Source of the DNA: Baffinella frigidus
Taxonomy: Eukaryota; Cryptophyceae; Cryptomonadales; Baffinellaceae
Assembly (NCBI GenBank): GCA_026770585.1
Contig: MU646997.1
Span: 85,536 to 125,255, forward strand
DNA: 39,720 bases
Reading direction: 5' to 3'
Program-made: the position numbers and the translations under genes
Notes under the pieces: model-generated
Seen by the model: the letters and a program-made list of their open reading frames with translations, nothing else
The model's database searches: none
Told to the model about the DNA's origin: nothing
In this document: positions 2,522-39,350 of the stretch, piece after piece
Position numbering within the stretch: the stretch's first letter is position 1
Layout of the letters: every line of letters begins with the position of its first letter

Positions 2522-3650
2522 GCTTGCCTGGAGCGGATGATTTAGCAGAGTAACGAATCTCCCTGCATCAGTCGCTGTACAGTAGAGGGGGGGGGGCGGG
2601 TGCCTGGAGCGGATGATTTGGACGGCAGCTGCCCGGACACCCTGTTTCCTGAGCGCATCCTGCAACCCGGGAGAGAAAGATACATGATTACAGTCCGTTG
2701 TTTTGCTGTTATGCTACGACTGTAGGCTGAACCGGACAGGGTGTGAACCAGAACGGTGACCAATCCGGGCAGGCTTCGTAACGGTGCAAGACTCAATTCC
2801 GGTTGTTATATATATTGTTATATTGAGTAATTCCGGTCGCCCGGACCCCCTGTGTCCTCAGCGCATCCTGCCAATCGGGAGAGCCACGTTTATTGGATAC
2901 CCATTAGTTACCGAGTTTTAGAGTGTATTGGATTCCCATTGATTATCGAGTTTTAGAGTCGATTGGATACCCATTCGTTATCGTCCAGGTACAAAACCCG
3001 GACTCCCTGTTTCCTGAGCGTATCCTGCCAATCGGGAGAGAAGGACAATTGAGTATTCAAGTTTCTGCTAACAGTATGTATTGTTTTTTTGTTATTGATG
3101 GTTCGTTTTTGGTTTCACAGCTGAGACGGCAGCGGCCGTCCAAATCATCCGCAGAACACCCTGTCTCCGCAGCGCGTCCTGCACACGGTGTAGGGTTTAG
3201 GTTAGGGTTTAGAGTTTAGGACGCACACCGGACGGGCGAAGCAGGCGAGAGCATATTTCCCCTTGCCAGAGCCTCGTATTTGGCAGAGTTTCGGTTTCGG
3301 GTTTAGGGAAACGGGTTAGTTTGGTCGGTTTAGGGATGCGGTTTAGGAGGCCTCGAAGGCTTCGAGAACCTCGAAGGCCTTGAAGGCTGTTCATGTATCC
3401 TTCTCTCCCGGGGACCCCCGGTTTCATCAGCAAAGTCCTGCAAACTGACAGAGAGGGATGCATAAATAGTCAAGGTTCTTTTACCATTGTTTGTTTTTGT
3501 TTTTGTTTTGTTTTTGTTTTTGTTTTCATTTTGTTTCGTTCACAGGGATAAATCTCAATTAGGAAAGCACCCGTCTCGTGTTCAACGTTTGACATGGTCT
3601 AGATTAGAATTGGGACGGCGGCTGCGCGGGCCCCCTGACTCCTCCTTGCA
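2522..3650 (-). repeat. Echo cluster of folB exon 9
   Basis: One donor-side fragment (2522-2545) lies downstream of the exon. Five acceptor-side fragments lie upstream (2833-2872, 2996-3032, 3126-3177, 3410-3446, 3613-3650). They share CCTGTTTCCTGAGCG-like sequence on the plus strand and a Gly-Arg-rich flank (cgggagag). Confidence 0.75.
2604..2659 (-). CDS. folB: folB exon 9 with a GC donor
   Basis: 18 codons plus two bases, acceptor ttgcag. It encodes DALRKQGVRAAAVQIIRS, the last strand of the FolB fold. The donor appears to be GC (CCAG then gcaccc). The downstream donor-side echo at 2522-2545 also shows CCAG then gcaagc, close to the GC-AG donor consensus. Acceptor-side echoes lie upstream near 2833, 2996, 3126, 3410 and 3613. 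The next exon was not found. Confidence 0.6.
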
Positions 3651-6600
3651 AACCGAGAGACAAGGTTATTGGATACCAATAGAGTCGCAAGAGCTCTTGA
3701 GTGTTACAGAGCGGAATCCAGCCGAGCACCCAATCTCGTCCTAGCACCAAATAAAATTCATTTCAGGAATGTCCTTCTAAACGAAGATTTATACCAAGAA
3801 CTTTTAGAATTTTAATTTTTTGTACTTTTAGGGTTTTAAAATATCTGGATTTGTACCAAGAATCGTTTAGAAGGACAGTTCCGAGATTAATTATATTATG
3901 GATCGCGATGAAATCGGTGGACAACGAAGGCCTCGGGACCTCAGATTCTGGGGGAACCGTGACCAAATTTGTACCACATAACGAGGCATCGTGCGAGCCA
4001 CTAGGCAAAGAGAAAGATGTTTTGTATCACTCAACTCAAGGCTCAAGGGCCTATCTAGGACCTGTTTCGAGAGTAATAAAGAAGAAGAAGAAGAAGAAGA
4101 AGAAGAAGCAGAACAAGAAGAAGAAGGATGCTTGGTTACGGTTCGGTGATGTTTTATCATCCGACGAGCGAGAAGGATGTTTGATGATGTTTCGGTGTTT
4201 TTTTGTTATGCTACGACTGCAGACTGAACCAGGCACGTTTTGTACGGCGACGATGACTAATCCGGGTAGCAAGCTTCGAACCGGGAAAACCTCAAGTTGG
4301 TCAACATTCGAGGGAGTCTCATCGGTAGGAATTTGAAAGCCCTAGCGTAACAGACTGGCGCAAGTTCAATCCATCACCATCAATAAGGGGCTTTTCGTGT
4401 CGGCCCTTCCCGCGCTGGACCCCCCGAAAAGAGGGGGCGCGTGCCAACTTGTCGATGAGGATACACAACCTTTTAAAACCCGTGAAGCTGTACAAGTGAG
4501 GTAGATGTAGTGTGTTTCATATATTTGGTCACGTGTCCACCCGCTTTTCGGGCAGACACGTGACCAACCCCGTGCAAAACGCCTACAATCGACATTTTAA
4601 ATAGGGTGCTTGGGTAGCCTCGTGTGGCTCGTACCGGCTTGTCGATGAGGACAGACACTTTTGCCACGCCGCATTTCTCCACCACCTGCCCCCCCGCACA
4701 ACTTAAGGCGCCCGCTCGAGTGCCAGACTGGTCTCACCGTGCCCAACAACTTTCCCTTTTCCGGGGTTTGAGATTCCAATTCAGTCAACTGCCGGGCTTT
4801 GGGAGTTGACTAAATGGCTGAACGGAAGGAAACGTGACTAGCAGTGAGAAACTGCTACCATCAGCTGTCTGCGGGGTTCAGTAAAAGAAAAAGAAAAAAG
4901 AAGAGGTGGGTTTAGGGTTTGGGGTTTAGGGTTTAGGATTCAGGATTCAGGGTTTAGGGTTTAGGGTTTAGGGTTCAGGGTTTAGTGTTTAGGGTTTAGG
5001 GTTAAGGGTTTAGGTATGACCTCTCGCGCGATGGCCTCAGCGAGGGCCTCGATCGTGAACCACTTGCCCTCCGTGCACACTTTCCTGCTCAACCTCACAA
5101 TGTTAACCCCACAAAATGCAATTTAATCCCGAAAATTACCATTTAGAACTCCCAACAATTTTGGATTTGAATAATCCGCCACTAAAGTATGTCCAAAAGA
5201 TGATGTGGTTTACTCGACTGAACCAGTTTATGTTTTGCTCCATGATTCCTTGGGAACGAAACCATCTATTGAGGAATGTGAGGAGTACCCACTTAGCAGC
5301 CACTGATGCCTTTTGGAAATCGGCCCACCTAAAATATTCCGTACAAATCGCAACCCCTTTCGGATTAAGGTGGAATCTTCCCTGGATTTACGGGGAAATC
5401 CGGTGGATTTACGGGGAAATCCGGGGGAAATTGGCGTTGGTCACTTTTAAGTGGAGATATTCACGCATGATAAATAGATCCAACTATTAAGACATGATGA
5501 AACCCTGCTCAAATAAGGAAACAACAATAAGTTGACTGACGCCGGCATGAGGTCGCCCACCCTTACCGGGAGATGTTAGCCAGGGTCGCGAAGTTGGTCG
5601 TAGGTACTCCACACCGGGAGATCTTTGCCAGGAACTATTCACGCACGATAAATAGAGTCAACTATGTACTTATGATGAAAGCCTATTCAGATATGAAACA
5701 TCTCTAATTTGGCTGACCCCGGAATGAAGTCAAGTCACCCCTTACCGAGAGATCTTGGCGAGGGTCGCCAAGTTGGTCGTGGGCTTACAATTGCACTTTT
5801 ACAGAAATCTTCCCGGGCATGGAGAACATTCCTGGTACAAACCGGACGTGCCTGCTACAAATCGGACCTACAATATACTTTTACCCGTTTTTTCTCTCAG
5901 TCCGGGCGCGGTACATACCGGGAGATCTTGGCCACGGGCACACCCTATTTACATGGAACTTGCGGAGTCTCGTCCCGTTCCTGGTACAAACCTGTACAAC
6001 CCCACATGTAAATAGTGTGCCCGCGTTCTCGAGTGGTACCGGGAGATCTTGGCGAGGGTCGCGAAGTTGGTCGTGGCTGTCAGCTCCTGCGCGGCCATTT
6101 CCGCCTGCGCGTTGGCTTACGATCGTCAACTTAAAGATGTTGACTTGAGAGTGTCGACTTGGGGGCGTTGAGTTAAGAATATCGACTTAAGGATGTCAAC
6201 TTTCACGAGGCGGTATGCGTCAGGGATCCGTGGAGCAGGACACCAAATCATTTGCGGCACTAGATTTTTGTGTATGGCAAAAAGCACCAGTATCCCCAAA
6301 TCTGGGGTGGGGGTATAGCGCTATTGTACCAAGAGTCGCGTGAAGGTTGTCCAAACTTCGGCTGCTCTTCTGTATACAGAGGAGCATCCGTTTTCTGGTA
6401 CGTTTTTTTCCTACTCTAAGTTATCGGGAAATGTTCGCTAAGTTGTCGGAAACTATTTTAGTTTACTACTCTATGTTATCACGAGTCTTGAGCCAGACAA
6501 ATTCTCGATTTTCAGTGAAAATTACTACACACTGTTTCACCCGTGTGGAATGTCGTCCTGGTTGATTCCGGCCTTCAGTCAATCTATTCGAAAAATTAGT

Positions 6601-8920
6601 AACACGAAATTGAGTTAACTAACCCGATTCAAAGTTCGGGCTCAGATAGCTATGATAAATTACCCAGTCTTGTCGGTCCGCGCGCTTGATCTGCGCCTCG
6701 AGGGCGCCTGGACCGAGAACGCTACGGATAAACGTAGATTGTAGGGCACGTCCGGTTTGTACCAGGAAAACGCCTTACAATTGCACTTTTACCGACTCGA
6801 AAACCGGACATGGAGAACATTCATGGTACAAACCGGACGTTCCTGGTACAACCCGGACTTACAATGTACTTTTAGCCGTGGTATTTTTAGTCCGGGCGCG
6901 GTTGGATCACCCAGTCCTGTCGGTCCGCGCGCTCGATCTGCGCCTCGAGGCGGTTGAAATCCGGCACCCCGCACGCCTGCATTACGGTTCAGGGTTTAGG
7001 GTTTGGGGTTTAGGGTTTAGGGTTTAGGATTTAGGGTTTACGATTTAGGGTGTAGGGTTTAGGGTTTAGGGTTTGGGGTTTAGGGTTTAGGGGTTAGGGG
7101 TTAAGGTTTACGGGTTAGGGTACAGGGTGCATGGTTTAGTGTTAGGGTTTAGCGGGCAGCGTTCAGGATTTAGGGTATAGGGTTCAGGGGTTGGTCACCT
7201 CAAGCGAAGCGCGGAGGTCTGTCCACACGCCAACCTGCCGGTTCGGATTGATGGTCAAAAACTGCTGCCTCCACGCCAGACCACAAGAGGGAATTCGTCT
7301 AAAGTTTGTTCTAGGGGCTGGCGGTTAAGGGTTTAGAGTTTGGGGTTTAGGTTTCAGAGTTTGGGGTTTAGGGTTGAGGTTCTAGGGTTTAGGGTTTAGG
7401 GTTGAGGGTGTTAGAGTGTACCGAGACTATGTGCGGCTGCGGGCTCAGGGTTCATGGTGTGGGGGTTGGTGTTCGGGGTGCGAGGTTAAGGGTTTAGGGT
7501 TTGGGGTTTAGGGTGTACCGAGACGATGAGCGGCTGCGGGCGGACTCGCTCGTCTTCGTTGCATCCGATCACACACAGCACCTCCTGCTTCAGGGTTCAG
7601 GGTTTAGAGTCCTGGTGAGGTGATGGAAATACCAGCTGGCTCAGTTTCTCACTGGCTGCTTCAAGGGTGTTTTGGTGCAAGTGTCTGGTGTATATGTATA
7701 ACCCCCTTTTAATGGAGCCACACTCTCGATTTCCCCTTGTCCTGCCTGCGGAGGCTCCCTTGTTAACCAAACAGAGATTTTTCCCGGTACACAGCCTGCC
7801 CGAATTAGTTGGCCTAAACCATCAGCCCTAAACCCTAAACCCTAAACCCTCAGCCCTAAACCCTAGATCCTCAACCCTTGGCCTGGGTCAAGCGGCAAAA
7901 GACTCCCCCACCCCCACCGAAGTTCCACGAGCACCCAATTTCTGAAACTATGTGAGACTCCCACGGCTGTTGACTGAACCGGGCAGGTTTTGTACCACGG
8001 ATTAACTAATCAGAGCAAGATTTGTACCAGGGCAAGCTCCAACCACTTGGTGGTCTTCGAATCATTCACGACCCCCAGGTTCTGGAGGCCCTGTGATCAA
8101 TTTTTCACCAATAATGGCCCTAAAGTCAATTTCTCTGGGCAAGTTGACTTGTTAAAAGAGGCGTGTTAGTCCACCGAGTGGTTTAGTCAACAGTCGCGGG
8201 ATTGTCGATCAAGGCCGGCTCATTAATGAAGAATCACATGCGGTCCGTAGAGTTTAGATTTTAGATTTTAGAGTTAAGAGTTCAGGGTTTAGGGTTGAGG
8301 GTGTAGGGTTTAGGGTTTACGGTACATCAAAACCTGCTCTTTCCAGGATTTAAGGGTTTAGGGTTTAGGGTTTAGGGTTTAGGGTGTAGGATGCATGCAA
8401 ACCTGCTCCTTCATCCACACGCGGTCCATCTCCTGCTCCCCGAGCCACGCAGCGAGCGCCTCCTCCACCCCCGCCCTCCCAACCACCCCAGACCTGAAGC
8501 CCCGCGCGCCCGCCCCGCCCTCGCTCCCTCCCCCGACCCCCACTCCCCCCATCCCCCGCGCGCCCCCCATGCCCAGCGCTTGCCTACCCCCCTCGCGCCC
8601 CAGGGCGAGCGCCCGCCCGCCCAACAGGGAGGAGAGCGGGAAGAAGGACGCAGCGGAAGGAAGGGGGCCGGGTGTCGGTGCGCCGTAGGGGGGCCTGGGA
8701 TGCAGGGAGCGATCAGACAAGAGCTTTGAGCGGTGGGAGAGCAGTGTGGCGGACTGGCACCTGCGTGTGATCCGCGCCCCACTACAAGTTTCGGCGGGGT
8801 GGGCAGGGGGGGGTACCCCCGGGAGAGCGGCACGACCACCCGGGCGAGGACGCGACCGCGGGTGCTGGCCGTGGTGAGGAGGAAAGATGGTGCGGCCAGG
8901 CGGGCCATCGGTCTTGCCAT
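2604..8920 (-). CDS. folB: Dihydroneopterin aldolase gene, nine exons recognised
   Basis: Nine minus-strand exons join in one frame of 209 codons: 8817-8920, 8403-8493, 7519-7584, 7199-7264, 6911-6976, 6040-6104, 5021-5084, 4635-4685 and 2604-2659. Residues 57-87 (MDRVWMKEQ, then VIGCNEDER and QPLIV) match the N-terminal strand and loop of FolB. Residues 141-209 match its C-terminal half: TTNFATL, FTIEALAEAIA and VSVLIDKPDALR. The family converts 7,8-dihydroneopterin to 6-hydroxymethyl-7,8-dihydropterin and glycolaldehyde in folate synthesis. Glu165 fits the pterin-anchoring Glu and Lys190 the catalytic Lys. The usual catalytic Tyr is Phe145. Residues 88-131 (exons 4 and 5) are longer than the usual linker. 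Residues 1-34 are rich in Arg, Ala, Ser and Thr with no acidic residue, like an organelle-targeting peptide. The 3' end is not found, so a fused HPPK-DHPS part cannot be excluded. Every phase matches at each junction. Confidence 0.75.
3769..3876. mobile_element. Foldback element
   Basis: Arms starting GTCCTTCTAAACGA at 3769 and ending with its complement at 3870 enclose AT-rich sequence. No coding capacity. Confidence 0.6.
4524..4567. repeat. Long hairpin
   Basis: GGTCACGTGTCCACCCGC and its near-perfect inverse flank CTTTTCG, in the folB intron after exon 8. Confidence 0.65.
4635..4685 (-). CDS. folB: folB exon 8, catalytic Lys
   Basis: 17 codons, phase 0 at both ends, acceptor gggcag and donor gtacga. 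It encodes VVEKCGVAKVSVLIDKP. Lys190 before Pro matches the catalytic Lys-Pro of FolB. A donor-side echo lies downstream at 4441-4464. Confidence 0.75.
4909..5015 (+). repeat. TTTAGGG array after folB exon 7
   Basis: Degenerate TTTAGGG units reach within six bases of the exon 7 donor. Confidence 0.85.
5021..5084 (-). CDS. folB: folB exon 7, pterin-anchor Glu
   Basis: 64 bases, acceptor gagcag and donor gtcata. It encodes KVCTEGKWFTIEALAEAIA. Glu165 in TIEALAE aligns with the conserved Glu that binds the pterin ring. A TTTAGGG array follows the donor. Confidence 0.75.
5561..6704 (-). repeat. Echoes of folB exons 5 and 6 with repeated intron blocks
   Basis: Four donor-side copies of exon 6 lie at 5561, 5611, 5741 and 5915, and one of exon 5 at 6661-6704. 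Intron sequence with GATAAATAGA near 5467 and 5648 is duplicated with them, giving units of about 180 bases. Confidence 0.8.
6040..6104 (-). CDS. folB: folB exon 6, active-site segment with Phe for Tyr
   Basis: 21 codons plus two bases, acceptor gcgcag and donor gtacc. It encodes TATTNFATLAKIS, matching the family motif in which Asn-Tyr-Ala is usual. The phase-2 end completes Arg153 with the first base of exon 7. Four donor-side echoes lie downstream at 5915-5938, 5741-5782, 5611-5633 and 5561-5603. Confidence 0.7.
6911..6976 (-). CDS. folB: folB exon 5
   Basis: 22 codons, phase 0 at both ends, acceptor tgcag and donor gtgatc. The product ACGVPDFNRLEAQIERADRQ is helix-like. A donor-side copy lies downstream at 6661-6704. 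Confidence 0.6.
7199..7264 (-). CDS. folB: folB exon 4, longer linker
   Basis: 22 codons, phase 0 at both ends, acceptor aggcag and donor gtgacc. It encodes QFLTINPNRQVGVWTDL and further residues. The start could lie slightly upstream, since the frame remains open. Because exons 4 and 5 are multiples of three in phase 0, they could be skipped without changing frame. No echo copies were seen. Confidence 0.6.
7519..7584 (-). CDS. folB: folB exon 3, FolB signature loop
   Basis: 22 codons, phase 0 at both ends, acceptor agcag and donor gtacac. It encodes EVLCVIGCNEDERV and then QPLIV, the most recognisable N-terminal FolB segment (Ile-Gly, acidic loop, Glu-Arg, Gln-Pro-Leu). A donor-side fragment lies downstream at 7416-7444. 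Confidence 0.75.
8403..8493 (-). CDS. folB: folB exon 2, start of the aldolase domain
   Basis: Acceptor ttcag and donor gtttgc flank 91 bases (one plus 30 codons). The product ends MDRVWMKEQ, which fits the first strand of FolB proteins. A donor-side fragment of this exon is repeated downstream at 8329-8347. Confidence 0.65.
8817..8920 (-). CDS. folB: folB exon 1, targeting-peptide-like N-terminus
   Basis: ATG at 8920 opens 34 codons plus two bases, then a GT donor (gtaccc). GC at third codon positions is near 95% in this frame only. The product starts MARPMARLAAPSFLL and has many Arg and Ala residues but no Asp or Glu, as in mitochondrial or plastid presequences. The phase-2 end joins exactly to the next exon. 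A splice acceptor just before GGATCCGCG would also join it in frame to the candidate exon at 9069-9126, so the true start could lie further upstream. Confidence 0.55.
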
Positions 8921-16397: not shown

Positions 16398-16436
<39 letters not shown>

Positions 16437-28801: not shown

Positions 28802-29590
28802 AGCGCGCTCTCTCTCTCTCTCTCTCTGCACCGGCACGCGCGTCCTCTCTCTCCGGGCGTTACACTAAACCATTTAGTTCGCTTTACAGTAAACCCCTCT
28901 CAGTAAAGCAAACAGTGCATCCCTCGCGCTGTCCCACCCTCTCCCGAGAGGTGAGTGAAGAGTGTGACGAGTACCTGCATGACGTTATCGAATTCGGAGA
29001 GGCGCGAGGCGGACGAGCGCTGCACCGGGACGCGTTTCGTCTCGCCGTTGGACTCGATTGTGAGGAGGCACCGCGACCTGGAGAGTGAGCGAGAGAGTGT
29101 CAGAGGGATTTGGCAAATGACCTGGAGGGAGGGAGAGAGAGAGAGAGACAGAGAGAGTGTGTGGGTGGGTGGGTGAGAGAAAGAGAGTGTGTGAGAGAGG
29201 GTAAGAGAGAGAGAGAGTGAGAGTGTGTGAGGGTGAGAGAGAGTGAGTGTGTGTGAGGGTGAGAGAGAGAGTGTGTGAGGGTGAGAGAGAGTGTGTGTGT
29301 GTGAGGGAGAGAGAGAGAGTGTGTGTGTGGGTGTGGGTGAGAGTGTGTGTGAGGGTGAGAGAGAGTGTGTGTGTGTGNNNNNNNNNNNNNNNNNNNNNNN
29401 NNNNNNNNNNNNNNNNNNNNNNNNNNNNNNNNNNNNNNNNNNNNNNNNNNNNNNNNNNNNNNNNNNNNNNNNNNNNNNNNNNNNNNNNNNNNNNNNNNNN
29501 NNNNNNNNNNNNNNNNNNNNNNGAGAGAGAGAGAGTGTGTGTGTGAGAGAGAGTGAGAGTGAGAGAGAGAGTGAGAGTGAGAGTGAGAGA

Positions 29591-32600: not shown

Positions 32601-35406
32601 CCGAAATCTACAATATGAGATCGAGCGTGCGGTCCAATCAGAACCAGATTCGATCACTTCAGTCCAATGAGAAACCTCTTCGATTTCAGAAACGTTTCGA
32701 GACGCGGTGTTAACTGAAACTGTTGTGTGTAAAGTTGACTATCGACGTGGGAAAAGTTGACTGACGATGTGGGGAAAGTTGATCAACGCGGTTAGAGAGA
32801 CATAACCCCTAAGCGATCAGCCCTAAGCCCCCGTGGACACCCGTGTCGTCGATGGCTTGGCACTGGATCAGCTCCAATCAAAGTCAAGTCAAAGAGGCAT
32901 GCCCCCTAACCGCCTAACCCCCCCACATAGTGGGCTTTGTAGGACCATGTATGTTCGTGGAACTAATTAAGAATGGCTCGGTACAAAGACCTACTAACTG
33001 ACGTTTAGATCAGATTTCTGGTCGAAATTTCCTCCGACCACTCGAGGCTAGAAGTGTGACTATTTTTAAAGTTTTAACTTTACAAGTCCTTTACAAGTGG
33101 ACCGCTGTGTAGTAATTTTCACACACATAGGGTCGTTTGGTCACGTATCTTGGGTTATAACCCCAGATACGTGACCACGCCTGCCCGTGACTGGTACTAA
33201 ATGTAACAACCCCACATTTAAAATGGTCCCACTTGCAGCTTCGAGTGGGAAGCCCACTGTGTGGTTCGGGTTTCGGGTTTCGGGTTTCGGTGGTGCTCTC
33301 TTTCTCGCTCTCTCCCCCTCCCTCTCTCGCTCTCTCCGGAGAATAACACGTGTGTGGGTGGGTGCCTTTGTCGTCGATGGCGCGGCACTGGAGGAGCTCC
33401 TGCAGCTCCTTGACGTGTTCGCGCACCTGCTCCTCCACCAGCCGCACCTGCCACACAGGTTAGGGCTTAGTCACAAGCCGCACCTGGTTTATAGGGTTTG
33501 GGGTTTGGGGTTATAGGGTTTGGGCTTTGGGCTTTATAGGGTTTGGGGTTTGGGCTTTAGGGGTTTGGGGTTATAGGGTTTGAGGTTTGGGCTGCAGGCG
33601 TTATATAGGTTTCCCCATACACAACAGGTAATGGTAACACACAGGTTAGGGTCTGGGGGTTAGTTGCTTGGGACATAGGTTTAGGGTTGAGGCTTTAGGA
33701 CTCCTTGACGTGTTCGCGCAACTGCTCCCACCAGCCCTGGGAGGTGGCTCAAATTGCGGTCTGGAGTTGGAGCCATTTTACCTTGTAGACACCCCAGATC
33801 TGGGGAGTCTGCAACTCAAGAAGTCGCAATCTTGGTACAAAATCAACATTTGGCATTTTTGTTCCAGACCACAATTTGAGCCACCTCCAAGGGCTAGTCG
33901 TCTGTCACCAGCCGCACCTGCCGACGAGATCAGGTTATGGTCACACGTAGGGTACAGCAGGTTATGGTTACACACAGGTTAGGGTTGAGTCTCTAGGATT
34001 AGTCTTTAGGGTACAGCAGATTATGGTTACACACAGGTTAGGGTTGAGTCTTTAGGGTTACACGCAGGTTAGGGTTTAGGGTTTAGGGTCTGGGTAATTT
34101 GAAGTTCAGAGTGTAGGGGTTGGGTCTCCTTGACGAGTTCGCGCACCTGCCTTGTGTTGTGTGTAGTAGTTTTTGTTGTCAAACTTTTAAAAGAAAAATA
34201 CTTGTTCCCAGATTAACCTGCTCCGTCCCAGCCGCGCCTGGTACGTAGAGATCAGGTTATGGTTACACATGACCTAACAGGTTATCGTTACACACAGGTT
34301 CGGGTTTAGGGCTTATGGGGGTTTGGACACAGGTTTAGGGATTTAATCCCGCTAGGCATTTATTTTCAATGCGTCGGAGATCTCAGCATGGACGAAAATT
34401 ACTACACATCTGAATCTTCTGGTCACGTCCCACTGCAAATGTGTGATTTTCGTGCATGTGGGGACCTCCGATGCATTTAAAATAAATGCCTGGCGGGATG
34501 AGATCAGGGGTTTGGGACGCAGTTTTAGGGTCTGGGGTGTAGGGCTCCTTGACGTTCTCACGCAATTGCTCTATCACACGCCGCACCTGGTTTATAGGGT
34601 TCAGCTCCTCACCCCGTGTTTGCTGCCCCAAAAGTTCAAACCCCGTTGCTCGCCGCAGACTCACCCCCCGCGAACAGCGCCCGAAATTATCCCGTAGAAA
34701 ATCCATACAAGAATCTCACTTCAGTTCCCGCGTCCTCTCTTGGGGAAAGCTTTCGCTCACCTGCGGACTGCAAGGATATACATTTGGCTTGCTCCCACCC
34801 GCCATTCGAAAACAAAGGCAGTTTAATGGTTGCACGTCTGGCGGATTTGTACCAGGGGGCGTCGATTTCCGACGCCCCCCTGGCACATATCGGGGCAAGC
34901 GGGGACTGGTCAAACGATCAAAAATCTTGGCTTGGGAGGCGGGCGGGACCTGTTCTTCGTCGTCCCGGTCAAGGAAGGCCTGCGCGGGCGGCGGGGGGAC
35001 ATGGCGGCGGATGCGGAGGACGACGAGCATGCCCGAGTTGGCGGAGAGGAAGGTCATCTCGACGGCCGAGTTGCGCTCGCCGACCACCATCTTCTCCACG
35101 ATAGCAGTCTGGTGCGTGGTGACGTTGAACCCGTCTATTTCCATGAGCCTATCTCCGGTGCGCACCAGGCTCGTCACGTCGTTGCCGTCCACGTCCAGCA
35201 TATCCATCGCGGAGTACACAATGTGTGCCCCAAGCGGGTGGCCCTGTTGCCACGTCAGCCCGACTCCCTGCAGGCTCCTGTCCCCTTCCTGTTGGAACAC
35301 GGCGGGTCCGGTGAGGTGCTTCGCCTTGTTGGAGCCCAGCGGCTGTCCGAGGTCGCTGCCCGGCCAACCGCCGTTGATGTTTCCGTACATCTTGCCACCC
35401 GCTGTG
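16673..35406 (-). CDS. Two-PDZ coiled-coil protein gene, 20 exons recognised
   Basis: Twenty minus-strand exons join without a stop into 614 codons from ATG at 35390: 34950-35406, 33366-33447, 31830-31873, 31439-31492, 30102-30199, 28975-29077, 27609-27671, 26911-26969, 26020-26107, 25590-25632, 24339-24426, 23562-23652, 22403-22531, 20543-20650, 19394-19468, 18850-18905, 18491-18560, 17386-17459, 16941-16987 and 16673-16701. Every splice phase agrees. Residues 42-129 form PDZ 1 (RTGDRLMEIDGFNV). Residues 148-174 are a charged helix. Residues 175-250 form PDZ 2 (TLGLRIG, IKEGDEIVAVDGEAV, LLTIESNG). The rest has coiled-coil stretches (419-461 and 590-604) and Ser/Thr-rich parts. PDZ domains bind C-terminal peptides, so a scaffold role is an inference. 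An in-frame TAA lies upstream of the ATG. The 3' end is not found. I do not recognise the protein. Confidence 0.7.
16705..17062 (+). repeat. TTTAGGG/TTTGGGG arrays around PDZ exon 19
   Basis: Blocks 16705-16935 and 16994-17062, interrupted only by exon 19. Confidence 0.9.
16941..16987 (-). CDS. PDZ gene exon 19, coiled coil
   Basis: One base, 15 codons and one base, acceptor tcgcag and donor gtcaac. It encodes LQAENDRLRTALATG, a classical heptad segment. A TTTAGGG array flanks each side. Confidence 0.6.
17253..17345 (-). repeat. CCCTAGA array
   Basis: The plus strand reads CCCTAGA about ten times. It is opposite in sense to most arrays of this gene. Confidence 0.85.
17386..17459 (-). CDS. 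PDZ gene exon 18, Gly-rich
   Basis: 24 codons plus two bases, acceptor ctgcag and donor gtggcc. It encodes AALAGQGGGGGDGGELAEAH and TNMA. A related sequence at 17191-17230 shares the donor end. I take that as an echo because the copy here has a good acceptor and fits both phases, but the downstream copy could be an alternative exon. Confidence 0.5.
18128..18265. mobile_element. Foldback element, CCACCAACCCTCAC family, copy 1
   Basis: Arms CCATCAACCCTCAC..TGGGCAAATCGA and complement enclose a second inverted repeat (CCCCTTGAAGGCCGTCGG). The same family as 28298-28448. Confidence 0.75.
18267..18322 (-). repeat. Donor-side echo of PDZ exon 17
   Basis: The copy reads LIKLLRGPPQLSLAQVQV and keeps the donor side. 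It directly abuts a foldback element (18128-18265). Confidence 0.75.
18491..18560 (-). CDS. PDZ gene exon 17
   Basis: One base plus 23 codons, acceptor tccag and donor gtatgc. It encodes SDEVIGLIKLMRGPPKLSLA and QIK. A donor-side echo lies downstream at 18267-18322. Confidence 0.65.
18850..18905 (-). CDS. PDZ gene exon 16
   Basis: 18 codons plus two bases, acceptor acaag and donor gtgaga. It encodes VARDLEELLDCLAAQPLV. The intron just upstream is a TTTGTGG array. Donor-side remnants lie downstream at 18728-18741 and 18651-18666. Confidence 0.65.
18908..19205 (+). repeat. TTTGTGG then TTGAGGG arrays
   Basis: 18908-19034 is nearly pure TTTGTGG. 19128-19203 is pure TTGAGGG. They lie between PDZ exons 15 and 16. 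Confidence 0.9.
19394..19468 (-). CDS. PDZ gene exon 15
   Basis: 25 codons, phase 0 at both ends, acceptor gcgcag and donor gtacct. It encodes IGGDLMYDKEPLPQNLVWRL and VAAHM. Acceptor-side echoes lie upstream at 19564-19585 and 19712-19725. Confidence 0.65.
19908..21247 (-). repeat. Echo cluster of PDZ exon 14
   Basis: Donor-side copies at 19908-19960, 20097-20157 and 20416-20462 lie downstream. The intact exon is 20543-20650. Acceptor-side copies at 20819-20836, 21098-21116 and 21154-21247 lie upstream. Segments around 20690-20830 are short tandem repeats with CGGTATTAA. Confidence 0.85.
20543..20650 (-). CDS. PDZ gene exon 14, Ser/Thr-rich
   Basis: 36 codons, phase 0 at both ends, acceptor tgcag and donor gtgtcc. 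It encodes VRVLKEQLRCQMGSPLRMPT and SRRNTSTTSIGDSSVE, the latter a likely phosphorylated linker (inference). It has three donor-side echoes downstream (20416, 20097, 19908) and three acceptor-side echoes upstream (20819, 21098, 21154). Confidence 0.7.
21351..21564. mobile_element. Foldback element, CCACTCGAGG family, copy 1
   Basis: Arms TCCACTCGAGCCTGGAAGTG and complement. The centre has a palindrome with GGTCACGTAT and GAAAATTACTACACA. Confidence 0.8.
21985..22814 (-). repeat. Echo cluster of PDZ exon 13
   Basis: Three donor-side copies (21985-22042, 22147-22204, 22274-22310), the intact exon (22403-22531) and a long acceptor-side copy (22714-22814) that lacks the last 40 or so bases. The long copy still encodes KMLVVTLRLKIEELEGTLD. 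Confidence 0.85.
22403..22531 (-). CDS. PDZ gene exon 13, coiled coil
   Basis: 43 codons, phase 0 at both ends, acceptor ttccag and donor gtcact. It includes KMLLVTLRLKIEELEGTLD and RKQRTEAQDNRDMLLDE, with heptad-spaced Leu/Ile. Donor-side echoes lie downstream at 22274, 22147 and 21985. A long acceptor-side echo lies upstream at 22714-22814. Confidence 0.7.
22970..23430 (-). repeat. CCCTACA/CCCTGCA/CCCTAGA arrays
   Basis: Blocks 22970-23107 and 23277-23430 surround exon 12 echoes. They are G-rich in the sense strand. Confidence 0.85.
23562..23652 (-). CDS. PDZ gene exon 12
   Basis: One base plus 30 codons, acceptor gtgcag and donor gtacgc. It encodes SNKSMSVAQLLKRTKVYEQR and a Ser-rich end. 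Three donor-side echoes lie downstream at 23458-23482, 23243-23266 and 23122-23205. The longest has an in-frame TAA. Confidence 0.65.
23940..24063. mobile_element. Foldback element inside an exon 11 echo
   Basis: Arms TGTGGAAAC with TTTAATTTAAAA-like sequence. It separates the donor part of an echo (gacatggccccagatct) from the rest (cgaggcggttcc), which are adjacent in other copies. Confidence 0.75.
24339..24426 (-). CDS. PDZ gene exon 11
   Basis: Acceptor cccag and donor gtgaaa. It encodes LNGVSPPADLRAGDWNRLDS and AAMSTTSG. Donor-side echoes lie downstream at 24192-24236 and at 23892-24085; the latter is split by a foldback element. An acceptor-side echo lies upstream at 24504-24535. Confidence 0.6.
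24655..25235. repeat. Dispersed GGTCCATTTAC..TGGTACTAATT repeats
   Basis: GAACGGTCCATTTAC plus TCGTGGTACTAATTA occurs near 25150, 25180 (degenerate), 25208 and 25487, and inverted at 24660-24693. Together with exon 10 donor remnants they fill this intron. Confidence 0.65.
25309..25460. mobile_element. Foldback element with long arms
   Basis: Arms AACGTCCTGAAAACCGGGTA plus CCTACGGTAGGCCG and complement. Related CCTACGGTAGGCAAT pieces occur near 26661, 31113 and 38400. It follows an exon 10 echo. Confidence 0.85.
25590..25632 (-). CDS. PDZ gene exon 10
   Basis: 14 codons plus one base, donor gtgact. It encodes CADQVGELVPRVAS. The acceptor (acaag) was chosen because it keeps the phase; the frame is open further upstream, so the 5' edge is uncertain. 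A donor-side echo lies downstream at 25258-25298, with shorter donor remnants near 25028, 24814 and 24717. Confidence 0.5.
25645..25762 (+). repeat. TTTCGGG/TTTAGGG/TTTGGGG array
   Basis: Three unit types in successive blocks, next to PDZ exon 10. Confidence 0.85.
26020..26107 (-). CDS. PDZ gene exon 9
   Basis: One base plus 29 codons, acceptor tcgcag and donor gtcaca. It encodes TLYNHLDAMLRGSTICDKLD and an Ala-rich end. An acceptor-side echo lies upstream at 26247-26318; it lacks the last 30 or so bases. Confidence 0.65.
26247..26318 (-). repeat. Acceptor-side echo of PDZ exon 9
   Basis: It is almost identical to the first 60 bases of exon 9 and encodes TLYNHLGAMLRGSTLCDKLD. The last part of the exon and the donor are missing. 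Repeats of GAATAGTGTGTAGGA lie around it (26125-26430). Confidence 0.85.
26911..26969 (-). CDS. PDZ gene exon 8, coiled coil
   Basis: 19 codons plus two bases, acceptor ctgcag and donor gtacac. It encodes VDKLVAELLAMEQKNVEAE. The phase-2 end gives Ser with the next exon. No echoes seen. Confidence 0.6.
27034..27232 (+). repeat. TTTATGG then TGTTTGG arrays
   Basis: 27034-27125 is TTTATGG; 27163-27215 is TGTTTGG. Each block is homogeneous. Confidence 0.9.
27609..27671 (-). CDS. PDZ gene exon 7
   Basis: 21 codons, phase 0 at both ends, acceptor cggcag and donor gtcaga. It encodes RCDDLYKKVAQASSDPS and a short tail. Five acceptor-side echoes of its RCD start lie upstream (27776, 27858, 28012, 28166, 28468), and one donor-side echo lies downstream at 27358-27412. 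Confidence 0.65.
28298..28448. mobile_element. Foldback element, CCACCAACCCTCAC family, copy 2
   Basis: Arms CCACCAAACCTCACGGCTTG and complement. It is flanked by AAGGACACATGC at 28286-28297 and 28449-28460, a 12-base direct repeat that looks like a target duplication. Confidence 0.8.
28674..28732 (-). repeat. Donor-side echo of PDZ exon 6
   Basis: It retains the donor and about 50 exon bases, then runs into a CT/GA microsatellite. Confidence 0.8.
28975..29077 (-). CDS. PDZ gene exon 6, last PDZ 2 strand and linker
   Basis: One base plus 34 codons, acceptor ctccag and donor gtactc. It starts SRCLLTIESNGETKRV, closing PDZ 2, and continues with a Ser-rich linker. A donor-side echo lies downstream at 28674-28732. 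Confidence 0.7.
29095..29640 (+). repeat. GA/GT microsatellite with assembly gap
   Basis: (GA)n and (GTGA)n on both sides of 145 N at 29378-29522. It lies in the intron upstream of PDZ exon 6. Confidence 0.95.
30102..30199 (-). CDS. PDZ gene exon 5, PDZ 2 core
   Basis: 32 codons plus two bases, acceptor agcag and donor gtaagc. It encodes GLIKEGDEIVAVDGEAV and then TDQNILSRVKGDNMI. The I-x-x-GDEI-x-x-V-x-G segment is the clearest PDZ motif in the window. It is the only complete copy in a cluster of five: a donor-side echo lies downstream at 29792-29862, and acceptor-side echoes lie upstream at 30366-30452, 30513-30562 and 30604-30664. Confidence 0.75.
30249..30369. mobile_element. Foldback element inside a PDZ exon 5 echo
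   Basis: Inverted arms with GCAACGAAAATTACTACACA and complement. It sits where the echo at 30366-30452 loses its donor end. Confidence 0.65.
30662..30699. repeat. Perfect hairpin
   Basis: ACCTTCTCGCATGCCA and its exact complement surround six bases. It abuts the acceptor-side end of a PDZ exon 5 echo. Confidence 0.8.
31439..31492 (-). CDS. PDZ gene exon 4
   Basis: 18 codons, phase 0 at both ends, acceptor aagcag and donor gtcctc. It encodes AKPCAVTSVVPGSHAFAQ. The V-x-x-V-x-P-G-S-x-A pattern is the usual PDZ strand and turn before the G-hydrophobic-GD motif in the next exon. Confidence 0.65.
31500..31980 (+). repeat. Heptamer arrays around PDZ exon 3
   Basis: GGGTTTG, GGGTGTG and TTTAGGG blocks. 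One touches the donor of exon 3. Confidence 0.85.
31830..31873 (-). CDS. PDZ gene exon 3, PDZ 2 binding loop
   Basis: Two bases plus 14 codons, acceptor ctgcag and donor gtaccc. It encodes TLGLRIGLNSEDRK, where LGLRI fits the carboxylate-binding loop of PDZ domains. An acceptor-side echo lies upstream at 32023-32040. Confidence 0.65.
32242..32378. mobile_element. Foldback element, TTTAATTTAAAA type
   Basis: Arms ATAGGGAAACGGTTTTAAT and complement; GTGTGTAGTAAATTTCATTG inside. Confidence 0.7.
33037..33248. mobile_element. Foldback element, CCACTCGAGG family, copy 2
   Basis: The same family in reverse orientation, with GTGTAGTAATTTTCACACA and the GGTCACGTATC palindrome inside. It lies in the intron downstream of PDZ exon 2. 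Confidence 0.8.
33366..33447 (-). CDS. PDZ gene exon 2, coiled-coil helix
   Basis: 27 codons plus one base, acceptor ggcag. It encodes VRLVEEQVREHVKELQELLQ and ends CRAIDDK. The donor reads GC (AAAG then gcaccc), whereas its downstream echo at 32839-32873 has GT. Acceptor-side echoes lie upstream near 33472, 33701, 33905, 34126, 34222 and 34545. Confidence 0.65.
34346..34499. mobile_element. Foldback element near PDZ exon 1
   Basis: Arms ATCCCGCTAGGCATTTATTT and complement, about 90% alike, with GAAAATTACTACACATC inside. Confidence 0.8.
34950..35406 (-). CDS. PDZ gene exon 1, PDZ domain 1
   Basis: Largest exon of the gene. ATG at 35390 has A at -3, and an in-frame TAA lies about 50 bases upstream in unspliced DNA. 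A possible acceptor (ctgcag) just before 35406 leaves open an earlier exon. The PDZ fold is seen from GVGLTWQQG through TSLVRTGDRLMEIDGFNVTT to VEMTFLSANSG. It ends LDRDDEEQ at a GT donor and continues into the helix of exon 2. The plus strand is also open here but has no recognisable domain. Confidence 0.7.
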
Positions 35407-35774: not shown

Positions 35775-38700
35775 GTGCGCAGCCGCCGCCATCCACACTC
35801 CTGGGAGAAGCACAGAGGGGGTTCCTGCGCGGCGCCCCTAAGCTTCATGTGCGTGCAGACGTCCAGGAGCCTGCGGCCCAGCTGTAGGGGAGAAAGAACA
35901 CACATGAGGCGCATCTTTTCCACTGTTGCTCAACCGGCGATGTTATGTTTCTCCGCAGGTATTGCCAGCTGTGCGAGAAGGCGTGCCGCGACGAGAACGG
36001 ATACAAGTGCCACACCATGTCCGAGTCGCATCTCCGACAGGTGCTCACACACCTTCACAGCTCGCCCCCCACGCGCTCTGCAGCAATCCTCGAATCAAAC
36101 TACGACATACTCCAGACTGCTCTCACGCCTCCCGGGTGCGGCGCTGCGTGTGTTCAGAAGGACGCCAGACACGCTGGTTCCTCCACCACCAGCAGGGTCC
36201 CCATGCGCGTCGCTGGAGCAGCCGCACCATCACGCGCGGCTCCTCCTCGCGTTTTTCCAAGACTGAACGCGCAGCCACACCTTGCCGTGCGTCGTGGGCA
36301 ACCTAACCCTGAACCCTAACCTCGAAACCCTAATCCCTGAGCCGTATATCCGCCTGACCATGGTCGCGTCGCAGCGACCATTGCGCGCCATTGCGCGCCG
36401 CCCACAGCCGTTCGACGACCCCCTTAAACCCTAAACCCTAAACCCCAATCCCAGAACCCTACACCCTAAAACATAAAACATAAACCCTAGCCACCAAACC
36501 CTAAACCCTAAACCCTAAAAAGGTGCGGGTTTTCGTGGACAACCCTGCGGAGTTCGTGGATTTGTACTCCAAGAAGTTCCAAACCCTCGACCTTACAACC
36601 TAAACCCTAGCCACCAAACCCCAACACCTAAACCATAAACCATAAACCATAAACCATAAACCACAAAATCTCAACCCTAAAACCTAACCCCCAAAACGTA
36701 GGCGCGGGTGTTTGCGGACAACCGTGCGGAGCTTATTGACCCGGTACTCCAAGGAGTTCCATGACGCCTAATCTTCAACCCTAGAGCCTGAACCTAAACC
36801 CAAACCATCAACGTTAAACCCTAAACCCTGAAAAAAGGTGCGGGTGTTTGCGGACAACCCTGCTGAGTTCGTGGATTCGTACTCCAAGGAGTTCCACGAC
36901 GCCTACCTTGACGTCCTCAAGCGCAAGGGTCGCTACACCCGAAACCCGAAACCCGAAACCCGAAACTCGAAACTCGAAACCTGAAACCCGAAACCCGAAA
37001 CCCCCGTCGCTCATCCGTTCATGCGTTCACTCTTGTATTAATTAAAAAAATATTTTCGAAACATGAGAGAAGGAATGAAGGAAATATTTCATTAGTTTCC
37101 CCCAGAGCGAAGTAATGCATGAATAAATCAATGTAAGAACGAACGAGTGGATGAACGCATGCCTGCATGAATGATTGCATGTATTTACGATTGAATTAAT
37201 GCATTTATTTACGATTGAATGAATGGCCGACCACCTGAATGCGTGATTGACCGATTTCATGCCGAAACACTTTTAATTTAAAAAATTGAGCAAGGAAATT
37301 TACTACACATAATATTTTTTACTAGTATTATTAAAGCATTCGTGTAGTAATTTTGATTCATTCCAAATATTTTAAATTAAAAGTGTTTGCATATGAGATT
37401 GAACGCATGGGTGAATGGATGGACGAACGAATCAAGGAAGGAAGGAGACACGGAACGCGTTCCGAATTGATGAAAGCAAGAACGGATGCATTCATGAATG
37501 CATGAATAAATGCGAACGCGTTTTCGACCGAATGGACGCATGGGTGAATGGATGGGTGAATGGATGAATGCATGTGTTTTCGACCGAATGGATGAACGAA
37601 ATAATGAACGAATGGATGGATGGGTGCAGGCGAGCACGTGCGATCGCAAGCCCGCGCGCTCTACCATGAGGTCTGCCCCACTCTCATCTCAAAAGATAAC
37701 TGAATCACTTCCTTTTCAATAGGAGGTTGAATAGGAGAACTTAGTTAGGACATAGTGAATTTAATTAGGCATCCTAGTCAAATGAAAACGCTAATTAGGG
37801 AACTGATTCAGTTATCTTTCGAGATGAACTCCCTAGCTCTTTCTCAGTCTATTTGGGCCTACCACTTTGGTGAGCCCGGGCCTTTTTTCGCTCCAAAGTT
37901 GACGGAGTTGTACCGCAACCCCAGCATGTCAACTTGAGAGTCGTCAGTCAAGCCGAGTGATGCAGAGCTACCACTCGAGGCTAGAAATGGGACTTTTTTA
38001 AATGTGGGGTTGTTAAATTTAGTACCAGTCATGGGCAGGCCTGGTCACGTGACGGGCGGAATTCGACCAAACGACCCCATTTGTGTGAGATTTACTACAC
38101 ACCTCTTTCCCCCCCTTCACTTGTAAACGTATCCCTGTTTTAAAATAGTCACATTTCTAGCCTCGAGTGGTAGCCTCCCTCCCCCGCGCGGCCGCCGACA
38201 GTTGAAAAATGAGGAAGTTGACGTGTGCATCGACTTTTGCCATTTTGAAATGTTCTGCTGCATATGTTTGTTATTTGAACTGATCTCTATACAAAAATTG
38301 ATTGCAGTCAAGTTGCGGCCAGCCTGATCCGAGAGCTCGAACATGTTATTGCGGACCGGCACCACATGAATAACCCATAAGTGAAGAATCCATAAGACCC
38401 TACGGTAGGCAATACCGTAGGACATAGGGTTGTTCCTACGGATATCTTAACCGACGATTCTGGGTCAGAAGCCAGTGCAAAGTCTCTTGGTGGCCCGCTG
38501 CGTGGAGTGCTCACCCCGGACACGAACAGATTATTGCGGACCGGCTCGTCTTAAGGTTGGATCACTCGTATACAGGCTTGAGAGTAATAAAGCAGAAGAG
38601 GGGGCGAGACAGTGGCCATGCTCACCCTCGAGAATCTCGAACAGGTTATATTATGCGGGGGCCTCCATACAGCCCCCCCCACCAAGGAGGCTAAACCCCA

Positions 38701-38817
38701 ACCCCCAAACCCTAACAACAGGTTATCGCGGACCGGCACCACATCCATATGAACTCGACCAAGTGGCTGACGCTCACGGAGTACGTGCTGTACCTCGGCC
38801 GCGACGGCATCGCTGAG
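35680..38817 (+). CDS. KIN17: KIN17 gene, five 5' exons (partial)
   Basis: Exons 35680-35774, 35959-36040, 36838-36928, 37630-37670 and 38722-38817 join into exactly 135 codons. KIN17 is a conserved nuclear DNA- and RNA-binding protein linked to replication, repair and splicing. The N-terminus (FLAPKAIANRIKAKGLTKLR) is the family hallmark. Residues 34-56 form the zinc finger with Cys34, Cys37, His50 and His56. Exons 3-5 give the winged-helix domain, including IADRHHIHMNSTKW and LYLGRDGIAE. The spacing between LDVLKRK and HIHMN equals that of animal KIN17. The protein is about 390 residues in animals, so roughly two thirds lie beyond the window. Exons 3 and 5 have truncated duplicates in adjacent introns; exons 1, 2 and 4 do not. 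Confidence 0.92.
35959..36040 (+). CDS. KIN17: KIN17 exon 2, C2H2 zinc finger
   Basis: Acceptor ccgcag and donor gtgctc. It encodes YCQLCEKACRDENGYKCHTM and SESHLRQ. The two Cys and two His ligands are all present. The phase-2 junction completes Trp32. Confidence 0.95.
36421..36835 (-). repeat. CCCTAAA arrays of KIN17 intron 2
   Basis: Degenerate CCCTAAA and CATAAAC units lie between the two exon 3 echoes and the exon. The plus strand is C-rich, as is the KIN17 sense strand. Confidence 0.85.
36523..36770 (+). pseudogene. Two truncated KIN17 exon 3 copies
   Basis: The copy at 36523-36580 has an ag acceptor and reads VRVFVDNPAEFVDLYSKKF in frame, then ends without a donor. The copy at 36702-36770 follows gtag and is frameshifted near 36745. 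CCCTAAA-type repeats separate them. Both precede the intact exon. Confidence 0.85.
36838..36928 (+). CDS. KIN17: KIN17 exon 3, winged helix
   Basis: Acceptor aaaag and donor gtcgct, 30 codons plus one base. It encodes VRVFADNPAEFVDSYSKEFH and DAYLDVLKRK. It is the last and only complete of three copies; the two upstream ones (36523-36580 and 36702-36770) keep the acceptor end and lose the donor end. Confidence 0.85.
37060..37640 (+). repeat. GAAT/GGAT tetranucleotide-rich stretch
   Basis: Degenerate GAATGAATG and GGATGAATG repeats on both sides of a foldback element in KIN17 intron 3. Confidence 0.8.
37265..37388. mobile_element. Foldback element, TTTAATTTAAAA type
   Basis: Arms AAACACTTTTAATTTAAAA and complement; both GAAATTTACTACACA and its inverse lie inside. 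KIN17 intron 3. Confidence 0.8.
37630..37670 (+). CDS. KIN17: KIN17 exon 4 (micro-exon)
   Basis: Acceptor gtgcag and donor gtctgc around 41 bases. It encodes EHVRSQARALYHE, which fills precisely the gap expected between exons 3 and 5 and ends in a Tyr-x-Glu like the Tyr-Asn-Glu of relatives. Found by phase and length. Confidence 0.75.
37970..38171. mobile_element. Foldback element, CCACTCGAGG family, copy 3
   Basis: Arms ACCACTCGAGGCTAGAAATG and complement; GAGATTTACTACACACC inside. It lies in KIN17 intron 4. Confidence 0.85.
38343..38548 (+). pseudogene. Acceptor-side echoes of KIN17 exon 5
   Basis: Two fragments (38343-38370 and 38524-38548) share the exon's first bases, including GTTATTGCGGACCGGC-like sequence, and then diverge into unrelated repeats. 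Both lie upstream of the intact exon. Confidence 0.7.
38722..38817 (+). CDS. KIN17: KIN17 exon 5, winged helix
   Basis: 32 codons, phase 0 at both ends, acceptor aacag and donor gtcccg. It encodes VIADRHHIHMNSTKWLTLTE and YVLYLGRDGIAE, strongly like KIN17. Acceptor-side echoes lie upstream at 38343-38370 and 38524-38548 and perhaps 38640. A donor-side echo lies downstream at 39250-39350. The next exon, expected to encode the Lys-Gly-Trp segment, is not in the window. Confidence 0.9.
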
Positions 38818-39249
38818 GTCCCGCCCCGCCTTCCCCTATAGCCAAATAGCGAAATATAGCTAAATAACTAACAAGGAACCCTTCATGCTGAACCCGGGTT
38901 CGGTATTAAGGGTTTCTTGTTAGGGGCTCCTAGTCCGGGGACATGTTTAATTGCAAGAAAATGAATCCCTGTTTGTTCATAGGAGTTGGCCGAAGGTTAA
39001 TTAGGGCCCTAAGTAAATATAAGTAGGGCCATAATCCGGTTCGGTAGGCCATTTCCTTGTACATGAACATGTTCCCGGATGAGCCCCGCCTGATCCAGCG
39101 TCCTTACGCTTTCCCTCACGCTCCGTACGCGTCCCTACGTTTTCCTTACGCGTCGTTAGGCTTCGTTGTAAGGGGTTCGTGTTCCATAAGAATGTTTCCT
39201 TGGGGGGGGGGGGTCGTACTTAGCGATTGGGGAGCGACACGTCCGCGTG

Positions 39250-39350
39250 AAATCAACCAAGTGGCTCACGCTCACCCTACGCTCAAAACCCTACACCCTA
39301 CACCCTACACCCTACTACGTGCTGTACCGTACAGGCCGGGATGGTATCGC
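39250..39350 (+). pseudogene. KIN17 exon 5 copy split by a heptamer array
   Basis: Sequence for STKWLTLT is followed by about 40 bases (39276-39315) of CCCTACA repeats and then YVLY and GRDGIAE with the donor. ACGCTCA occurs on both sides of the left junction. The reading frame stays open through the insert, but the copy lacks the exon's first third and the acceptor. Confidence 0.8.

Follow-up and report, generated by a model that had tools for sequence, protein, structure and literature searches.

Truncated copies of exon edges lie in the introns around intact exons in the cryptophyte alga Baffinella frigidus, and they follow a strict polarity, in which copies upstream of the intact exon keep its acceptor end and copies downstream keep its donor end. 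These partial copies, here called echoes, were analysed in a stretch of 39,720 nt (the window) on contig C667 of the 382-Mb genome (1,364 contigs), where a PDZ gene, folB and KIN17 contain them, and in further genes of the same and other contigs. As the original prediction had claimed from the letters alone, the polarity is strict: not one of 67 classifiable copies, which come from five genes of this contig (PDZ, folB, KIN17, an ATP-synthase-like gene and TOP6B), keeps the wrong end, and the rule extends to genes on ten contigs besides C667, 11 in all. Polar truncated exon copies are therefore confirmed as real in this genome. They point to an unusual process of local DNA duplication where exons meet introns: with a probability of roughly 55%, we regard them as arising from repeated local duplications at exon borders, the commoner event duplicating an exon edge around new filler.

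Exon borders were taken from intron-free sequences for the PDZ, KIN17 and ATP-synthase-like genes and from deposited models for folB and TOP6B. PDZ exons 1-9 joined into a single reading frame, and the joined protein matched P0001 (582 aa, from a JGI contig of 1,998 bp) with 100% identity and 100% query coverage, Baffinella frigidus P0002 with 92% identity over 70% of the query, and Baffinella frigidus P0005 with 100% identity over 30% of the query; the P0002 model carries one additional echo. P0001, which was placed along PDZ exons 1-17, is probably an RNA-derived protein, because its source contig of less than 2 kb has no room for the PDZ introns. The KIN17 exons were defined by P0011 and the ATP-synthase-alpha-like exons, also on C667, by P0009; the source names both as MMETSP transcripts, and both match the contig in exact exon blocks. 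The folB exons follow the deposited model P0006 (PF02152) rather than RNA, and those of TOP6B the deposited model P0010 plus homology. Exact exon borders are confined to C667, the ten further contigs being marked by protein-domain match only. ATP-synthase-like exon 4 and several KIN17 exons fall in N stretches, as do parts of P0009 and P0011. In the PDZ exon 18 region (17384-17470), transcript-derived P0001 lacks about 31 nt of the genomic G-rich run and its C-terminal frame is shifted, as judged by eye, and the intron after PDZ exon 5 contains a 145-base N run at 29378-29522.

Each exon alone was used as a blastn query (E<1e-3) against the surrounding ±4.5 kb, with the same-strand exons of the set masked, and an exon end was scored as kept when no more than 6 nt of it were absent. 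The window set comprised 29 exons. The thirtieth, KIN17 exon 4, lies within the window and was scored in a further set of 26 exons (11 ATP-synthase-like, 4 KIN17 and 11 TOP6B); scoring covered neither PDZ exons 18-19 nor ATP-synthase-like exon 1 nor TOP6B exons 1, 4, 5 and 15. Because copies of one exon are not independent, they were also counted per exon side. The exons and copies of the window are as follows, with the percentage identity of each copy to its exon.

PDZ gene:
34950-35390 (-): exon 1, no copies (exon joining, P0001 mapping, blastn)
33366-33447 (-): exon 2, intact, GC donor (P0001)
34544-34586 (-): exon 2 upstream echo, acceptor end, 77%
34126-34150 (-): exon 2 upstream partial copy, neither end, 96%
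33701-33736 (-): exon 2 upstream echo, acceptor end, 92%
32844-32875 (-): exon 2 downstream echo, donor end, 88%
30102-30199 (-): exon 5, intact (P0001)
30604-30657 (-): exon 5 upstream echo, acceptor end, 93%
30516-30554 (-): exon 5 upstream echo, acceptor end, 85%
30367-30446 (-): exon 5 upstream echo, acceptor end, in deposited P0002, 94%
30243-30374 (no strand): foldback element between exon 5 and echo
29792-29858 (-): exon 5 downstream echo, donor end, 90%
28975-29077 (-): exon 6, intact (P0001)
28681-28748 (-): exon 6 downstream echo, donor end, 84%
27609-27671 (-): exon 7, intact (P0001)
28165-28189 (-): exon 7 upstream echo, acceptor end, 88%
27773-27797 (-): exon 7 upstream echo, acceptor end, 96%
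27365-27414 (-): exon 7 downstream echo, donor end, 96%
26020-26107 (-): exon 9, intact (P0001)
26249-26314 (-): exon 9 upstream echo with co-duplicated intron (ordinary tandem duplication), 97%
25590-25620 (-): exon 10, intact (P0001)
25268-25296 (-): exon 10 downstream copy, both ends within 6 nt, 90%
24339-24426 (-): exon 11, intact (P0001)
24203-24235 (-): exon 11 downstream partial copy, 8 nt short at the donor end, 88%
23562-23652 (-): exon 12, intact (P0001)
23130-23194 (-): exon 12 downstream echo, donor end, 86%
22403-22531 (-): exon 13, intact (P0001)
22711-22808 (-): exon 13 upstream echo, acceptor end, 83%
22275-22302 (-): exon 13 downstream partial copy, neither end, 89%
22161-22205 (-): exon 13 downstream echo, donor end, 89%
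21985-22029 (-): exon 13 downstream echo, donor end, 93%
20543-20650 (-): exon 14, intact (P0001)
21159-21237 (-): exon 14 upstream echo, acceptor end, in deposited P0005, 95%
20464-20542 (no strand): telomere-like filler between exon 14 and echo (sequence)
20418-20463 (-): exon 14 downstream echo, donor end, 87%
20099-20158 (-): exon 14 downstream echo, donor end, 92%
19911-19965 (-): exon 14 downstream echo, donor end, 87%
18491-18560 (-): exon 17, intact (P0001)
18270-18320 (-): exon 17 downstream echo, donor end, 86%

folB:
7519-7584 (-): exon 2, intact (model P0006)
7422-7444 (-): exon 2 downstream echo, donor end, 91%
6911-6976 (-): exon 4, intact (model P0006)
6704-6902 (no strand): dispersed foldback element of ~200 bp between exon 4 and echo, 45-nt repeat on both sides (93%)
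6664-6703 (-): exon 4 downstream echo, donor end, 95%
6040-6104 (-): exon 5, intact (model P0006)
5746-5782 (-): exon 5 downstream echo, donor end, adjoining an element at 5784-5912, 95%
5567-5601 (-): exon 5 downstream echo, donor end, 91%
2604-2659 (-): exon 8, intact, GC donor (model P0006)
3609-3643 (-): exon 8 upstream partial copy, neither end, 80%
2997-3024 (-): exon 8 upstream echo, acceptor end, 93%
2839-2867 (-): exon 8 upstream echo, acceptor end, 90%
2528-2543 (-): exon 8 downstream echo, donor end, 100% over 16 nt

KIN17:
36838-36928 (+): exon 3, intact (P0011)
36523-36581 (+): exon 3 upstream echo, acceptor end, 90%
36704-36770 (+): exon 3 upstream echo, acceptor end, 85%
37630-37670 (+): exon 4 (P0011), no copy in the ±4.5-kb blastn test
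38722-38817 (+): exon 5, intact (P0011)
38345-38367 (+): exon 5 upstream echo, acceptor end, 96%
39248-39354 (+): exon 5 downstream echo in two pieces around telomere-like sequence; piece 39248-39275 keeps neither end and is counted in the window, piece 39316-39354 keeps the donor end and is outside the window count

In the window, 37 sense partial copies and 1 antisense copy were found, and 17 of the 29 exons have copies. The predicted end is kept in 31 of the sense copies and the wrong end in none, while 5 keep neither and 1 keeps both (binomial p = 9e-10). The further set gave 43 sense hits and 1 antisense hit in 18 of its 26 exons, the sense hits keeping the predicted end in 36 cases, the wrong end in 0, neither in 6 and both in 1. 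Aligning the exons with their flanking introns and tabulating the kept ends thus gave no wrong-end copy in either set, and all 67 classifiable copies follow the rule once the 13 of 80 hits that keep both ends or neither are set aside. Counted per exon side from the hit tables, 21/21 sides in the window and 23/23 in the further set agree, and 80 hits are in sense orientation against 2 in antisense. The last KIN17 exon terminates at the stop codon, and its single downstream echo therefore has no donor boundary. The original prediction had put the copies at about 60, around some 24 of 34 exons; the lower counts in the window hold at the threshold used, and some shorter copies are visible by eye. 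Alignment recovered copies at the examples it had named in PDZ (exons 5, 7, 13 and 14) and KIN17 (exons 3 and 5). Its folB exon 6 has no hit in the present numbering, which may differ, and hits occur at folB exons 2, 4, 5 and 8.

On the other contigs, copies were scored by sign with a strand-free rule, by which the left copy has the larger deficit on its right. All four copies at the nine chaperonin loci examined follow the rule, as do 16/16 at kinase loci, where 6 of 11 cores have hits and 5 have none. A second kinase set of fourteen cores gave 67/69 concordant raw rows; 62 of these 69 rows come from cores in two loci (L046 and L047) that contain simple or telomere-like repeats or extend into intron, and they were dropped (60/62 concordant, both discordant rows in L046), leaving 7/7 in agreement. 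The ten other contigs together therefore give 27/27 after this removal and 87/89 in raw rows. The pattern had been proposed to be genome-wide, and this support for it comes from sampling.

The 67 polar copies have a median spacer of 230 nt, a median exon part of 50 nt and a median identity of 91%. A local copy within 1.5 kb was found for 61 of 88 exon-edge 60-mers compared with 72 of 300 intron 60-mers (p = 2e-14), a contrast that is an upper bound on targeting because intron pairs decay on both sides and the sampled intron 60-mers were chosen outside repeats and echoes. A local direct duplication that has one breakpoint inside the exon, and leaves one exon whole, produces a second copy whose cut side faces that exon; upstream of the exon only the acceptor edge can survive in the copy, and downstream of it only the donor edge. 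Polarity is thus a signature of tandem-type duplication that keeps one exon whole and argues against dispersed insertion or retroposition, which bears out the earlier argument against random dispersal, but polarity alone does not reveal what else was duplicated.

The extent of the copies was therefore followed across the splice junction. Counting from the junction, the 67 polar copies match the intact exon with a mean identity of 0.88 over exon positions 7-20 and of 0.92 over positions 1-6. On the intron side the mean is 0.91 at positions 1-2, 0.53 at 3-6, 0.43 at 7-12, 0.36 at 13-20 and 0.29 at 21-40, compared with 0.87, 0.32, 0.29, 0.28 and 0.25 in control pairs of different exons, and the 12 copies that are at least 95% identical give 0.83, 0.60, 0.44, 0.34 and 0.30 in the same bins. 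Codon positions 1 and 2 have diverged by 0.058, from which a co-duplicated intron would be expected to retain an identity of about 0.89; the third-position rate of 0.164 still would not lower this expectation to near 0.4. In most copies, therefore, duplication of the intron went no further than a few bases, or the intron flank has been replaced. Intron-flank homology was detected at p<0.05 in 24/67 copies and not in 43/67, in a test whose floor is p ~0.024 downstream and 0.038 upstream. The junction-crossing copies of the window carry 3-21 nt of intron at acceptors (n = 12) and 2-46 nt at donors (n = 14), and in the further set 10 of 27 crossing copies carry 16-162 nt, and these 10 include six of the set's ten acceptor copies. 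A stop at the junction is therefore common and clearest at donors but not universal, and the 10 copies with longer intron parts led to the rejection of a general stop of echoes at the splice site.

The splice dinucleotide (GT or AG) is included in 61/67 copies, and decoy splice sites are left behind, as had been foreseen: AG precedes 21/26 upstream echoes and GT or GC follows 40/41 downstream echoes. Two intact exons, PDZ exon 2 (33366) and folB exon 8 (2604), have GC instead of GT donors. Deposited models have taken up such copies: the upstream echo of PDZ exon 5 is included in P0002, that of PDZ exon 14 forms the end of P0005, and the TOP6B model P0010 (138060-148652 of the contig) contains echo peptides, several TOP6B peptides being repeated in it as doubled segments. 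Transcript-derived P0001, P0009 and P0011 use the intact exons wherever they can be mapped. Gene models in such genomes may therefore hold false exons and doubled peptides. A reading of the ATP-synthase exon 8 echoes as a spliced junction ('RVGKL') was dropped, as a GTAAG donor accounts for it.

Mismatches between exon and echo number 70, 71 and 198 at codon positions 1, 2 and 3, and this third-position excess agrees in direction with constraint on the exon. Where the exon and another echo agree, the changes found in one echo alone number 29, 33 and 60 at the three positions.

The sequence between the copies is varied. Of the 91 spacers that separate neighbouring copies, sense CCCTAAA-like sequence makes up at least one quarter in 20, another 8 are TTTAGGG-like and 63 fall in neither class. 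The fillers that were looked at are of diverse kinds and sit in introns, between the copies of an exon. The clearest filler case is folB exon 4, where a dispersed foldback element of about 200 bp (6704-6902), with relatives on other contigs, sits between the two copies of a 45-nt direct repeat that is 93% identical, consists of the exon end plus GTRAT, and lies 0 and 3 nt from the element ends. A member of the same family (5784-5912) abuts the downstream echo of folB exon 5. Direct repeats beside foldback elements vary in length, with 45 nt at 6704-6902, 23 nt at 34340-34505, 15 nt at 1200-1326 and, by eye, ~12 nt at 28298-28447. The idea that foldback elements generally make long target duplications was dropped, as 2 of 17 palindromes pass a 15-nt test, and so was that of terminal inverted repeats filling each spacer, which fit a subset only (12/91 at p<0.05).

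Telomere-like tracts in the introns are strand-biased. CCCTAAA and TTTAGGG account for 13.8% and 4.3% of sense-strand intron bases in PDZ, 13.1% and 1.2% in folB, 9.5% and 0.6% in KIN17, 16.5% and 2.1% in the ATP-synthase-like gene, and 29.0% and 1.9% in TOP6B. A CCCTAAA-like tract lies within 25 nt of 21 of the 52 window junctions (15.2 expected from random intron positions, p = 0.011), and a TTTAGGG tract within 25 nt of 2 of the 52. Splicing could select the strand of these tracts, because CCCTAAA contains neither AG nor GT while TTTAGGG repeats contain both. The breakpoints of DNA duplication thus show an unexplained link with splice junctions and with telomere-like repeats.

The favoured reading starts from what the copies display, namely polarity, locality, sense orientation, a mean loss of homology at the junction and unrelated sequence between the copies. 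In the commoner event, some 20-100 nt of exon edge plus the splice dinucleotide would be duplicated directly, and new filler (CCCTAAA tracts, foldback elements or other sequence) would part the two copies; this event is called commoner on the basis of the 43 copies with no detectable intron-flank homology. About a third of the events would be ordinary tandem duplications that also carry intron (the 24 copies with flank homology, PDZ exon 9 among them). The one copy that has kept its connection with the remaining exon would stay exon and the other would be cut on its far side, and as only the joined copy remains exon, the polarity would arise without an extra rule. The events may be repairs of breaks with staggered ends, by fill-in and end joining with captured filler. 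A direct repeat around unrelated filler is clear at folB exon 4 and elsewhere is suggested by the missing flank homology. Several results weigh against this reading. With breaks at random positions, intron and exon parts would be expected to be equally long, whereas the median intron parts of crossing copies in the window are 5 nt at acceptors and 7.5 nt at donors against exon parts of 41 and 42 nt, and outside the window 4 nt against 54 nt at donors; this shortness is not seen in acceptor copies outside the window, where a median of 20.5 nt of intron stands against 27.5 nt of exon. The model offers no reason for so frequent an intron-side stop at the junction. The 63 spacers that are not telomere-like, the inverted ends in only 12 of 91 spacers, and the 6 of 8 copies of the best-studied foldback family that have no adjacent long direct repeat also count against it, the last showing that long duplications are not simply the element's habit. 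Finally, the echo-unique changes (71 non-synonymous to 51 synonymous, against an expected 2.95:1) are too synonymous for plain neutral decay. Either the older echoes preserve synonymous states that the exon had earlier, or the template had already diverged; this bias is the chief result against simple neutral decay and the chief support for a recombination origin, considered below.

Plain tandem duplication of intron plus exon edge, as the original prediction proposed, here taken without filler and with the intron part since decayed, would yield the polarity equally well; it agrees with the flank homology of the 24 copies, long at PDZ exon 9, and with the 16-162 nt of intron in 10 of the 27 crossing copies outside the window. 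The intron-plus-edge unit is right for the 24 copies with flank homology; as a general rule it is unsupported and unlikely, given that it expects an intron identity of 0.89 where 0.53, 0.43 and 0.36 were observed at positions 3-6, 7-12 and 13-20, with similarly low values (0.60, 0.44, 0.34) in the 12 echoes of at least 95% identity. Foldback elements resembling miniature inverted-repeat transposable elements, or other mobile elements, might instead insert near exon borders and make unusually long and variable target duplications. The 45-nt duplication around the dispersed element at folB exon 4, the shorter repeats beside three other elements and the element end adjoining the folB exon 5 echo fit such insertion, but so many family copies and palindromes are without a long direct repeat, and so many spacers are telomere-like or without inverted ends, that we consider it rather improbable. 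It is similarly doubtful, and slightly more so, that an exon break was repaired with a diverged homologue as template, its introns being too different to align, the copying entering a foreign intron, the second end being unable to anneal, and end joining leaving the old edge as an echo. Such exon-limited recombination predicts the polarity, the end of homology at the splice junction and synonymous-biased differences, echo-unique ones included; slowly changing exon snapshots could mimic the last of these, and no second haplotype was seen, as a 1,501-base region matched in full only itself among the best genome candidates scored. Its extension carries the same low probability: fast intron turnover would leave exons as the sole homologous islands between haplotypes, and introns would grow as recombination scars, with CCCTAAA filler tolerated because its sense strand carries neither AG nor GT. 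That echoes are used or regulated exons maintained by selection is very unlikely. The third-position bias and the retained splice dinucleotides would suit it, and purifying selection could be read from the echo-unique bias, which can also arise from the exon changing between events; the transcript-derived proteins use intact exons where mappable, and each echo lacks one exon end with its splice site. RNA-templated or retroposed copies would account for the frequent ends near exon ends but are barely credible, given the GT or AG within 61/67 copies, the strict polarity and the sense orientation; no copy joining two exons was noticed, in the course of work that included no systematic search for such copies. 

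Local duplication at exon borders has partial parallels elsewhere. Vaughn and Bennetzen in 2014 and Schiml and colleagues in 2016 reportedly described patch-mediated break repair in plants that yields tandem duplications with filler, which resembles the folB exon 4 case in its direct duplication around inserted sequence. That repair is not known to be linked with exon borders, nor with homology that stops at splice sites. The CST complex, relevant to another form of break repair, has a link to telomeres. Small tandem duplications arise at breaks with 3' overhangs through fill-in by CST-guided Pol alpha-primase (PMC8355091); they are short direct duplications at breaks, as proposed for the alga, but concern human and mouse cells, and the abstract mentions neither an exon preference nor filler. 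In potato, a duplication crossing an intron-exon border, likewise tandem, made a new intron in a single event according to the portion of the report cited here (PMC4974935), whereas the algal events are repeated, lie in existing introns and mostly lack a detectable intron part. Introners are mobile elements, some with inverted repeats, that shape introns and, in the cited portion of that paper, make target duplications of 3-9 bp (PMC9860276) compared with 45 nt in the one clear case at folB exon 4; they form whole introns, whereas the algal fillers sit inside existing introns between exon copies. Direct repeats of 4-30 bp near splice sites, compared between the two borders of an intron in the cited portion of another study (PMC11782384), also lie near exon-intron borders, whereas the algal copies are of one exon edge, inside the intron, and polar. 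In the chlorarachniophyte Amorphochlora, introns fill three quarters of the genome, and the abstract and sections 3.1 and 3.4 of the report contain no mention of echoes (PMC12730881). Among titles and abstract openings of the open-licence PMC literature, nothing was found on polar exon-edge copies in introns or on Baffinella introns. Intron growth through echoes is plausible, with the median spacer of 230 nt; as a frequent and directional mode whose products can be ordered within single genes, it would make intron expansion testable by sequence.

Several minor features were observed in addition. Two element copies at 17949-18090 and 20922-21064 are 92% identical, and we take them to be perhaps a short interspersed nuclear element; by eye, an apparent direct repeat of 11 nt (ttgaactgtgg) borders the former, and a stretch resembling a tRNA A-box lies near the latter. 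Among the boundary motifs of all local repeats of the contig, CAGG occurs at 23 left edges against 4 positions inside (of 244) and CCTG at 22 right edges against 11, a signal left unused because mobile families are mixed into it and other motifs show no such pattern. A 36-base G run lies at 16400-16435, and a long open frame on the + strand (15077-15697), starting MRNGRVSRNSS, has by eye no tie to the three genes.

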